Below, piece after piece: positions 4,504 through 25,852 of a stretch of 38,881 nucleotides of DNA. Position numbers and translations under genes: made by a program. Within the stretch, counting starts at the first letter, position 1; each line of letters starts with the position of its first letter. This stretch comes from Sulfurospirillum sp. UBA12182 (GTDB lineage Bacteria; Campylobacterota; Campylobacteria; Campylobacterales; Sulfurospirillaceae): NCBI GenBank assembly GCA_002742765.1, contig DLUF01000088.1, positions 1-38,881 of the forward strand. The letters are read 5' to 3'. Under the pieces are notes generated by a model that saw nothing but the letters and a program-made list of their open reading frames with translations, did not search any database and was not told the DNA's origin.

Positions 4504-5649
4504 TTATCCTTTTGTATCCATAAGTTTGAAAGATGCTTCAAGTTCTTCTTGATTTTTAGCAACAAAAATCCTCTCTCCTCGTGTTTGGTTGAGAATTTCT
4601 ATGGCTTTTACACTCACAGCTGTAACCTTGGGCGCATATAAAAGTACGCAACTTTCTGTTTCTTGTAGCAAAGATTCAAAATGAAACTGCGTCAAAAAGC
4701 TATCTGTCTCTATAACTAAAGGCAAAAATCCTGCTGGAAGTTCAAAATCAAGCACTTCTTTTAGATACTTTTCAGCGATAAGTAAAACCTTCTTCCCTTT
4801 AGAGAGTTTTGCAACTTCCAAAAATGCCTCTTTTGTAAAATACGCAAAATCAAGAGCTTGATGCGGACAAACACTCACACACACACCACAATCTATACAA
4901 TCTAAGTGGGAAAAATAAATCTCTTTTTTCTCCTCATCATAACTCAAACCATGTGTTGGGCATACATCAAGACAGCTTTTACATGTAGGCTCATCTTGGT
5001 GCATAAACAAACACTTAGTTGGTTCAAATTTTAAAGACTCTGCATACTCATACCAACCTATGCGATTGCGAAATCTTTTGACAAGTTCTTCAGTATCATT
5101 TCCCTCTAAACTCTCAACGCCCATCTTTTTTGTTAGCTCATTATTTGCATCACAAAAGATTATTTGAGCGATGCTTAGTTCTTGTTGCTCCTCTTTTTCT
5201 TCCTCTTCATTAAAAGCTTCAAAACTAACCCTAAACGCTCCTAGTTCTCCCTCAACCCCTAAGAGTTTAGAAGGGCTGATATAAGTAACTTCAAAAAATC
5301 GTTCTGCATACTCCACAAAAGCATCAGCTTCCTCTCCCTCTCCTATGATAGCGACGCTTCTTTGTACATCTAAAGAGTGTTTTTTAACGAAAGAATTTTT
5401 ATGACGAATATAACGGATTTCATAAAGTGCTTTAAAAATCTCTTTTTTCGCTTCACTCTGTTCTTGTGTGTATCTTAGATACCAGTTAATCTCTGGTGCA
5501 TAGATATCACTGTTATAAAGTTCGTTAGAGATTAAGGCTGTTATGTAGTATGCCCCCTCAGCATCGATAACCATAATCCCCTCACCATTTTGAACAGGAG
5601 GCTCGCTCTCAGCTGTGTCGCTTATGTAAAGATATTTAATTTGGCTCAT
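4504..5649 (-). CDS. Ferredoxin-domain protein of the fdh cluster (short paralogue)
   Basis: This 381-aa protein has no signal peptide. Residues 1-190 form a poorly conserved domain with the phrase 'IYAPEINWYL', and a ferredoxin module follows: CKSCLDVCP around residue 223 and CIDCGVCVSVCP around residue 250, enough for two 4Fe-4S clusters. The C-terminal 120 residues have no motif I recognise. It is a shorter paralogue of the 559-aa protein upstream: both carry Y-A-P-E-I-N, the same ferredoxin module, and the phrase 'LP.G.LPLVIE' after it. Similar proteins occur in Campylobacter fdh loci. A role in electron delivery or in maturation of the selenoenzyme is plausible but unproven. It starts with ATG after GGGGG and has its own upstream inverted repeat. 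Confidence 0.75.
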   Translation of the reverse strand: MSQIKYLYISDTAESEPPVQNGEGIMVIDAEGAYYITALISNELYNSDIYAPEINWYLRYTQEQSEAKKEIFKALYEIRYIRHKNSFVKKHSLDVQRSVAIIGEGEEADAFVEYAERFFEVTYISPSKLLGVEGELGAFRVSFEAFNEEEEKEEQQELSIAQIIFCDANNELTKKMGVESLEGNDTEELVKRFRNRIGWYEYAESLKFEPTKCLFMHQDEPTCKSCLDVCPTHGLSYDEEKKEIYFSHLDCIDCGVCVSVCPHQALDFAYFTKEAFLEVAKLSKGKKVLLIAEKYLKEVLDFELPAGFLPLVIETDSFLTQFHFESLLQETESCVLLYAPKVTAVSVKAIEILNQTRGERIFVAKNQEELEASFKLMDTKG

Positions 5650-5716: not shown

Positions 5717-7396
5717 TCATTTTGCAAATCCTTTTTCCAAAGCATCGCCAAACATAACCTTTGGTTTACACTCGGCACAGCAGTAAAGTGTTGCCATTTT
5801 TCTTGGGTCATTTCTAAAATGTGGTGCCATCATAGCAGCTATCTTTTGGACTGATTTTACTGTTGCAAACTCTTTGCCACACTCTTGACAGGCAAAAAGC
5901 TCATCTTGAGCCATAATGTTTTGGATAAAATACTTTGGTTCTAATGAAAGTTCATTTTCTACAACACTGATACAGCCTTTTTCAGGACAGCTCAAAACAC
6001 AATACCCACAACTCGTACAAAGTGATGGGTTAAATCGTAAACTATTATCTTCAGGGTGAGCAGTAAGTGCTTTGACATTACAAGCACCTATACAACTAAA
6101 ACAGAGTGTACACTTCTCATCATCTATCTTCAAATTACCATAATGAGCTATCTTACCTGTGGTGATTGTTCCTAGATTTTCACTTCCAACCAAATGGGCT
6201 AATCTAGCTGAAAAAATCTCCCTTTTACTCATGCCTTCTTGGTTGATACCATAGCTACAAGCATCAATCGCTTGTATGTTTTTACAGGCTTCTTGTAATT
6301 CAATTTCATCTTTACATGTAAAGATAGCTTGCTTGTTATACTTTCTTTGAAAAATCTCATTTACAAGGCTTACGACTTCTAAAACAGCTCCACGAAGTGC
6401 TTTTGTAAAGAAGAGAACTGGATAGGTACTAGTTTGTAAAAGTGTCATGAAGTGAGCTTCATTTAAGGCGTCTTTAGACTCTATCACTAGAGGTAAAACT
6501 CCCTTTGGAAGTTTTAAATCCAAACTCTCAAAATCTACTTTAGAAGGGATGAGTAAAACGATAGAGTTTTTATAAAAACTGCTCATTTTTGAAAATGCAT
6601 CAAAAGGCATTTGTGCCAAATCAAGAGAACTCGAAGGACAAACGCTCACACAAGCACCACAGCCTATACAATCTATATGTGAAAACTGTAAATGTTTTTT
6701 TGAATCTATTTTTATGATAGCCCCGCTAGGACAAACCCCAACACACTCAGTGCAGATATCAGCTCGTTTTCTCTCGTGGTATTGGCAAGTTTGTGAATCA
6801 TAAGTTATAAAGTGTTTATAACGGTATTCCCCTACATTTGAACAAAGTGTCTCTATAATCTTTTCCAAACCTAAGACATTTAGGTCATACATACCAACTT
6901 TTTGAGTATAAATTTTTGGCATTTCAAACCATACTATCTGGTCACAAACTACCTCTAACTCTTCTTGGTCTTTTAAAAAGCTTACATGTAAATTCCCTAT
7001 ACACCCACTTACTTCTAAGATATGATTAGGATTGAAAACAAGAGTGACAAAATCTCTCTTTTTTGCTTCTTCTATAAAATCACTATGTTCATCTAAGCAG
7101 ATAACAACTAATTTATTTCCAACACTTTGAGACAACTCGATATCATCTACAAAATCTAAACTCACCCCTCTTGCATCATATAGTTTTTTAACATTGTGGA
7201 TTTTATCACTAATTACATCTTCAGAGTTTTTTACATAGTAGTTGATTTCTGGGGCATATAGATAAGAATTGTCAGTTTTGACATTAGAAACTAGATATTT
7301 TGAAGTTAAATTTTGTGTTGTATTTACAACCTCTATACTCTCATCAAGAGGGAACTCTAGTGGATTTTGGTCATAAAACATATACTCTTTAAGCAT
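5717..7396 (-). CDS. Multi-cluster ferredoxin-domain protein of the fdh cluster (long paralogue)
   Basis: This 559-aa cytoplasmic protein is the first gene of the fdh transcription unit. Residues 1-200 match the N-terminal region of the 381-aa neighbour ('LYAPEINYYV'). A ferredoxin module follows (CTECVGVCPSG, then CIGCGACVSVCPSS), and then a linker domain. A second ferredoxin module (CTLCFSCIGACN, then CTSCGYCVLSCP) comes next, and the C-terminal zinc-ribbon-like end has CQEC and CCAEC pairs. That gives four likely 4Fe-4S clusters plus one metal site. The start was set at ATG 7396; the frame is open to a TTG at 7420, and the ribosome binding site is weak either way. The function is not known to me. 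Its place at the head of the fdh operon suggests redox partnering or assembly of the enzyme. Confidence 0.75.
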   Translation of the reverse strand: MLKEYMFYDQNPLEFPLDESIEVVNTTQNLTSKYLVSNVKTDNSYLYAPEINYYVKNSEDVISDKIHNVKKLYDARGVSLDFVDDIELSQSVGNKLVVICLDEHSDFIEEAKKRDFVTLVFNPNHILEVSGCIGNLHVSFLKDQEELEVVCDQIVWFEMPKIYTQKVGMYDLNVLGLEKIIETLCSNVGEYRYKHFITYDSQTCQYHERKRADICTECVGVCPSGAIIKIDSKKHLQFSHIDCIGCGACVSVCPSSSLDLAQMPFDAFSKMSSFYKNSIVLLIPSKVDFESLDLKLPKGVLPLVIESKDALNEAHFMTLLQTSTYPVLFFTKALRGAVLEVVSLVNEIFQRKYNKQAIFTCKDEIELQEACKNIQAIDACSYGINQEGMSKREIFSARLAHLVGSENLGTITTGKIAHYGNLKIDDEKCTLCFSCIGACNVKALTAHPEDNSLRFNPSLCTSCGYCVLSCPEKGCISVVENELSLEPKYFIQNIMAQDELFACQECGKEFATVKSVQKIAAMMAPHFRNDPRKMATLYCCAECKPKVMFGDALEKGFAK

Positions 7397-25323: not shown

Positions 25324-25335
25324 AACCTTGATTTT

Positions 25336-25373
25336 TTGAACATATGTTTGATATAATTTGAACATATGTTCAA
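25336..25373 (+). promoter_or_regulatory. Promoter with paired ArsR/SmtB-like palindromes
   Basis: Two near-identical sites lie 22 bp apart (two helical turns): TTGAACATATGTTTGA (25336-25351) and the perfect palindrome TTGAACATATGTTCAA (25358-25373). A consensus -10 TATAAT sits exactly between them (25352-25357), so the second site covers the transcription start. The TGAACA..TGTTCA core resembles operators of ArsR/SmtB metal-sensing repressors. No ArsR-type gene is in the window. The layout implies tight repression of the two peptides that follow. Confidence 0.75.
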
Positions 25374-25387
25374 AACAAGGAGTGTGA

Positions 25388-25543
25388 ATGGAAGCATTAT
25401 TGGCTTGCAACAACAATAAGTGTGTAAAAAAAGAGGATTGCTTAAGATATAAGCTTTTCCTTGAAGGTGCCAAAGAATTTTCAACAAATGGTGGAAATGC
25501 AGAGAAAGGTTGTAAAAAATTTGTACAAAAGGATAAAGCATGA
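25388..25543 (+). CDS. 51-aa cysteine-rich small protein
   Basis: This peptide starts 'MEALLACNNNKCVKKEDCLRY' minus its last residues; cysteines are at 7, 12, 18 and 42. The pattern Cx4Cx5CxRY...CxxF resembles a loose class of small cysteine-rich, probably metal-binding bacterial proteins with no assigned function. AAGGAG lies 6 nt before the ATG, and the promoter upstream is excellent, which supports real expression despite the size. The stop overlaps the next start (ATGA). A metal-responsive role is inferred from the cysteines and the ArsR-like operators. I do not know the family. Confidence 0.75.
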   Translation: MEALLACNNNKCVKKEDCLRYKLFLEGAKEFSTNGGNAEKGCKKFVQKDKA

Positions 25544-25680
25544 AGAAAAGAATGCAAAAAAGAGCACTTGATGGCTCAGGTATGGGTTGTGGAAGAAGAA
25601 TGAAAAATGACAAACCTTGCAAAGGTAATGGCGAGGGTTTTGGAAAAGGTGAGGGAAGAGGTAAAGGCTGCAATAGATAA
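25540..25680 (+). CDS. 46-aa glycine-rich basic small protein
   Basis: This peptide overlaps the preceding gene by ATGA. It has basic ends and Gly-rich segments: 'DGSGMGCGRRM' (11-21), Cys27 in 'KPCKGNGEGFGKGEG', and Cys44 near the end. The three cysteines and the glycine repeats recall small DUF5320-like peptides found near iron-sulfur or metal-related genes, but the match is loose. Translational coupling and a shared terminator show it belongs with the 51-aa peptide. An antisense frame spans the region on the minus strand; I consider the plus-strand pair real because of the promoter, ribosome binding site and terminator. Confidence 0.7.
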   Translation: MKKRMQKRALDGSGMGCGRRMKNDKPCKGNGEGFGKGEGRGKGCNR

Positions 25681-25696
25681 TTCCAGCCTTTCTAAG

Positions 25697-25730
25697 CTTT
25701 ACATGTAAGAAGAATTTCTTACATGTAAAG
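25697..25730. terminator. Perfect 15-bp hairpin between convergent operons
   Basis: CTTTACATGTAAGAA (25697-25711) and TTCTTACATGTAAAG (25716-25730) are exact complements around GAAT. The hairpin lies 16 nt after the small-peptide operon and 2 nt after the end of the convergent cyd operon, so it probably serves both. Each arm contains the TTACATGTAA palindrome that recurs through the window. No long T-run follows. Confidence 0.7.
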
Positions 25731-25732
25731 AG

Positions 25733-25852
25733 TTATTTATCTTTGATATTTTCTTCAAAGTGGTTGATATTTAGCACTATAAATTTATATGTTACATAAA
25801 TGAGTACAGGCCAAGTAGCAAACCAAAAGATTCCTGATGTATAATCTACCAT
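25733..25852 (-). CDS. 39-aa single-helix protein after cydB, candidate cytochrome bd accessory subunit
   Basis: This small protein has one membrane helix, about residues 7-28 ('GIFWFATWPVLIYVTYKFIVL'), and a charged tail ending E-N-I-K-D-K. Position, size and topology fit CydX/CbdX-like peptides that stabilise cytochrome bd oxidase. The sequence does not match E. coli CydX closely beyond the W and the topology. It starts 8 nt after the cydB stop, with GGAGT before the ATG. I infer an oxidase accessory subunit with moderate confidence. Confidence 0.75.
   Translation of the reverse strand: MVDYTSGIFWFATWPVLIYVTYKFIVLNINHFEENIKDK

Follow-up and report, generated by a model that had tools for sequence, protein, structure and literature searches.

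The ORP complex of Desulfovibrio (Orp3, Orp4, Orp8, Orp9/MrpORP) combines two P-loop ATPases carrying 4Fe-4S inserts with a Nitro_FeMo-Co protein; the orp operons are reported to be sigma-54 controlled, and the Mrp member of the complex has a reported role in Fe-S biogenesis (PMC6345978). IssA of Pyrococcus furiosus serves thioferrate storage and bears a cationic, Gly-rich tail proposed to bind metal-sulfide (PMC5524996). DUF134 proteins (PF02001 / UPF0251 / COG1342) have a helix-turn-helix resembling sigma-70 region 4 and are often encoded beside, or fused to, NifX-like domains. In the literature searched we found no paper on this family as a regulator, its passing mentions being uninformative, and no description of an operator, ligand or function. 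Here we analyse a micro-operon encoding two small peptides in Sulfurospirillum sp. UBA12182, which is probably a detached piece of a DUF134 regulon.

The micro-operon lies on the + strand of the window, meaning the whole stretch of 38,881 nucleotides that was analysed. Its promoter consists of a -35-like hexamer, TTGATT (25328..25333), an 18-bp spacer and the -10 box TATAAT (25352..25357). The first operator, TTGAACATATGTTTGA (25336..25351), lies within the spacer, and the second, the perfect palindrome TTGAACATATGTTCAA (25358..25373), abuts the -10 box on its downstream side. Exact copies of AACATATGTT occur at 25339 and 25361, 22 bp from start to start, which confirms the original prediction of two such palindromes around a -10 box. 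A ribosome-binding site read from the sequence, AAGGAG (25377..25382), precedes ORF 1 (25388..25543), which encodes the 51-aa peptide MEALLACNNNKCVKKEDCLRYKLFLEGAKEFSTNGGNAEKGCKKFVQKDKA and overlaps ORF 2 (25540..25680), encoding the 46-aa, Gly/Lys/Arg-rich peptide MKKRMQKRALDGSGMGCGRRMKNDKPCKGNGEGFGKGEGRGKGCNR, by ATGA, again as originally described.

The perfect 15-bp hairpin predicted behind the unit is present at 25697..25730 (+ strand, loop of 4, -18.7 kcal/mol, z -5.7) and is weakly terminator-like. Two of the 11 copies of TTACATGTAA in the window (0.07 expected) make up the hairpin, which is therefore not specific to the micro-operon. TTACATGTAA is a dispersed palindromic repeat: its copies, at 6312, 6982, 13648, 17567, 19216, 25699, 25719, 29867, 33843, 35710 and 38030, lie partly in intergenic DNA and partly within ORFs, where they are read in several frames (LHVK, FTCK), and relatives have the repeat too. 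On the other strand, directly behind cytochrome bd oxidase genes, there is a 39-aa ORF (25733-25852, -) that could encode a small CydX-type subunit.

Neither peptide matched any family in Pfam or NCBIfam, and for the Cys peptide neither a PDB sequence search nor a Foldseek search with its AlphaFold model (pLDDT 87) produced a match. Such short ORFs with no database family might be expected if both ORFs and palindromes had arisen by chance. Against this, ORF 1 is under purifying selection (pN/pS versus relatives of 0.21-0.47), the cysteines at positions 7, 12, 18 and 42 of its product (Cx4Cx5C...C) are invariant in 46 sequences, and the second peptide ends in a conserved motif, C[KRQ]GNGxG[FL]GxGxGR, common to it and nine other sequences. 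For the palindromes, chance is opposed by the operator statistics upstream of DUF134 genes given below. These results already contradict an origin by chance, the probability of which we regard as negligible. Taken together with the homologues of both peptides, they argue that ORF 1 and ORF 2 are real, conserved genes, and the cysteines to which the original prediction drew attention proved conserved in the ORF 1 family.

Relatives of the 51-aa peptide occur in 68 of the 299 genomes of the order, and the 66 relatives at named loci are all from Campylobacterota. The majority of its distant relatives stand alone. Many of the 68 genomes contain a second four-Cys clade (GCxNxEC...FGGTPEKGCGKF) with neither DUF134 nor strongly conserved neighbours; it is found in Sulfurovum, Sulfurimonas and others (e.g. 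L301, L333, L310). The homologues of the 46-aa peptide, nine sequences sharing its C-terminal motif, are all located in DUF134 operons. The four invariant cysteines suggest that the first peptide probably provides a metal site.

Pattern searches of the 2.25-Mb genome located AACATATGTT at eight places. It is embedded in a promoter only as the micro-operon pair and as a second pair on contig C107; four single copies lie within ORFs. The C107 pair is 31 bp apart and likewise surrounds a TATAAT, with the first operator placed as it is in the micro-operon and in relatives, and the pattern ACATATGTNNNNTATAAT occurs in this genome at these two promoters only. Downstream of the C107 pair is an operon for two MinD/ParA ATPases (CbiA/ParA + Fer4, with 4Fe-4S inserts) and a Nitro_FeMo-Co (NifX-like) protein. 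Those imperfect copies of the 16-bp site with one or two mismatches that were inspected all fell within ORFs. A site with three mismatches, TTGAACATATGTCAAT, stands at C43:68039, 54 bp before the only DUF134 gene of the genome (C43:68093-68347, E 3.2e-22). The product of this gene has 198 aa, with DUF134 at residues 2-85 and a C-terminal part that resembles Nitro_FeMo-Co, the match to PF02579 (2e-4) reaching 22.0 bits and thus staying below the Pfam cut-off of 26.3. The original prediction held that the repressor is encoded elsewhere, and the C43 protein is the candidate for that role.

The association between site and regulator was followed across the order, where 87 of 299 genomes contain DUF134. 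Of the 44 genomes with the promoter-embedded site, 36 were DUF134-positive (Fisher p = 3e-15), as were 30 of the 50 with GAACATATGTTC alone (p = 6e-7; 20 genomes had GAACATATGTTC without a DUF134 match); these p-values overstate independence because the genomes are kin. Counting by genus is safer, and the palindrome was found upstream of DUF134 in 28 of 32 genera. In the 180 bp in front of the gene, 68 of the 79 DUF134 genes of the order have a site with no more than two mismatches, where shuffles give an expectation of about 1, an analysis that again rests on related genomes. The result holds both for free DUF134 genes (42 of 47; 0.46 expected) and for DUF134-NifX fusions (26 of 32; 0.49 expected). 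As controls, the upstream regions of 199 other ORFs at the same loci contained five sites with at most one mismatch, all at ORFs adjoining a DUF134 promoter, and the reversed pattern gave 1 match versus 49. By sequence comparison, therefore, the palindromes of the micro-operon are DUF134-type operators. DUF134-type sites were also seen in other families, before a cation-efflux gene (L200 1848), a rhodanese/TauE pair (L199 1717) and a gene pair with TauE (L264 970).

Two other regulators were weighed against these data. The original prediction assigned the palindromes to an ArsR/SmtB sensor encoded elsewhere and acting as repressor, and there is a likeness: ArsR/SmtB regulons also have a small palindromic operator over the promoter and a metal or thiol theme, the inverted repeat is similar in size, the peptides contain cysteines and the genome has an ArsR gene. 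However, the sole full ArsR match (C31) forms a pair with an arsC-like gene and lacks the site in its promoter, and the palindrome tracks DUF134 genes, members of a different regulator family, instead. The nearest copy on C31 is separated from this gene by about 600 bp and falls within another ORF. Control by ArsR is accordingly very improbable. Less probable still is a reading of the palindrome as an SOS box bound by LexA. GAACATATGTTC fits the SOS box consensus of the Gram-positive type, but the resemblance is confined to sequence: no LexA DNA-binding domain scores above cut-off in this genome (best E 0.053), and the targets are DUF134, MinD and NifX genes, among which no DNA-repair genes were found. 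We have little doubt, on the comparative evidence, that DUF134 would be the regulator of the micro-operon, since the genome has a DUF134 gene, the promoter has DUF134-type operators and the peptides have homologues in the DUF134 operons of relatives.

These operons display the arrangement from which the micro-operon appears to have become detached. Genus g4 and G045 share the contiguous order operator pair, DUF134, Cys peptide, Gly-rich peptide, MinD, MinD, NifX, and several operons of this type have a second NifX. Homology thus places both peptides among genes that elsewhere stand between DUF134 and MinD-ferredoxin / NifX genes. The original remark that no known function fits the peptides is correct in that they belong to no known family; it does not hold insofar as they are part of this recurrent DUF134 / MinD-ferredoxin / NifX module. 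Variants of the arrangement include a single reading frame shared by DUF134 and the Cys peptide (G011, L022 1059-1553) and, in G047, an operon of DUF134, Gly peptide and permease, where an ArsP_1-like permease half continues in frame, at its C-terminus, into the Cys-peptide sequence (L151 1945-2616).

Within the genus of the window, in one genome (G001) the MinD operon follows the same operator pair and TTGACATATGTTCAA precedes a DUF134-NifX gene. Another (G002) has no DUF134 and no MinD operon; it keeps only the Cys peptide, which again follows the DEAD-box helicase gene and whose operator has decayed to TTGAACATTCGCTTG...AACAAATGTTCAA (L063 about 4745-4800). On these sequences G002 reads as a natural case of loss. 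The position behind the DEAD-box helicase gene is occupied by site, ORF 1 and the Gly-rich peptide here, by site, ORF 1 homologue and NifX in G006, and by site and NifX in G015, and is a recurrent home of the regulon.

Outside the order, CATATG-core sites were found before plasmid DUF134 genes of Selenomonas (TTGACATATGTCAA, plus a second, near copy), Peptoclostridium (TTGACATATGCCAT and GTGGCATATGTCAA), Pusillibacter, Klebsiella, Citrobacter and Aeromonas, the gammaproteobacterial sites being TTGCATATGCCA-like. This comparison covers six loci without statistics and the spacing of the half-sites varies, so that these sites constitute a lead. The Peptoclostridium operon reads DUF134-NifX-ATPase-ATPase-MrpORP, with YeiH adjoining the cluster. 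On Klebsiella, Citrobacter and Aeromonas plasmids, DUF134-NifX pairs (L360, L362, L364) have TauE/SafE, DUF6691, SLAC1, Dps, ArsR or FAD-dependent oxidoreductase genes as neighbours, and DUF134-type regulators are found on Klebsiella, Citrobacter and E. coli plasmids, many of them conjugative.

With operators over both the -35/-10 spacer and the start point, the micro-operon looks repressor-controlled, in keeping with the original description of a tightly controlled unit, and repression rather than activation is highly probable. The resemblance of DUF134 to sigma-70 region 4 could instead point to a protein that activates, or both activates and represses, at its sites. We consider this improbable, because the first operator occupies the spacer and the second the start point, positions typical of a repressor. 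Under repression, the C43 DUF134 protein would bind both sites as a dimer and block RNA polymerase at the -10 box. Release would follow from a changed state of a metal-sulfur cluster (or of metal or sulfide) on its NifX-like domain. Free DUF134 proteins may sense through a CFKPC motif, each of whose two cysteines is found in 33 of 45. On release, the DUF134 gene would be expressed in concert with two further units, the one for the two peptides and the MinD/MinD/NifX operon. The ligand of the four-Cys peptide would be a metal or Fe-S cluster and that of the cationic Gly-rich peptide anionic metal-sulfide, the latter as proposed for the IssA tail, and the MinD ATPases with NifX would load or unload clusters.

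How the module compares with the described systems bears on its role. The C107 operon (L013), which is the partner operon and not the window unit itself, contains the ORP gene set, with the same pairing of two ATPases and a Nitro_FeMo-Co protein, and the Peptoclostridium operon links DUF134 directly to MrpORP. The C107 operon differs from the orp operons in its promoter, which is of the sigma-70 type and not a sigma-54 promoter with a cognate activator, in its DUF134 operators and in the two extra peptides of the regulon. Like IssA, the module features a member of the NifX-like domain family along with a Gly-rich, cationic segment, here a free peptide sharing a regulon with a NifX-like protein. 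In contrast to IssA, no single chain joining a NifX-like domain to such a tail was found here; the genes are separate, there is no aromatic-rich tail, and the peptide has a conserved Cys-x-Gly-Asn-Gly motif.

By analogy with these systems, the module may handle Fe-S or metal-sulfur clusters, a role to which we give an even chance. DUF134 might instead be the regulator of a module concerned with sulfur species (sulfide, persulfide, sulfite, thio-metal) or metal export and not with Fe-S storage or assembly. TauE/SafE, rhodanese, cation-efflux and ArsP_1-like permease genes occur behind the sites or as operon neighbours, plasmid DUF134-NifX clusters contain TauE/SafE, DUF6691, a SLAC1 channel and an FAD-dependent oxidoreductase, and YeiH adjoins the Peptoclostridium cluster. 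The TauE/SafE, rhodanese, cation-efflux and ArsP_1-like links are as compatible with sulfur or metal export as with Fe-S handling. The core module of the order, however, is MinD with ferredoxin inserts plus NifX, like the ORP complex, and we regard the export role as possible but not probable. For the stress unit of the original prediction, this leaves the metal or thiol theme plausible and ArsR-type control discarded. Returning to cluster handling, we tentatively suggest, while thinking it rather doubtful in its full extent, that DUF134 proteins could be widespread metal-sulfur-cluster-sensing repressors with CATATG-core operators, sensing through a CxxxC motif or through a NifX-like domain that is either fused to them or separate. 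In Campylobacterota they might govern an IssA counterpart split over several peptides, with four-Cys and cationic Gly-rich peptides gathering metal-sulfide for ferredoxin-bearing MinD ATPases.

In summary, the micro-operon does not represent a new kind of system; what is new is an operator and a regulon for DUF134. Two peptide families that had no annotation are placed in a module of the ORP/NifX type. An unstudied but widespread family of proteins thereby gains a concrete operator, regulon and genome context, and because the operator and regulon are now concrete, the ligand of DUF134 becomes testable.
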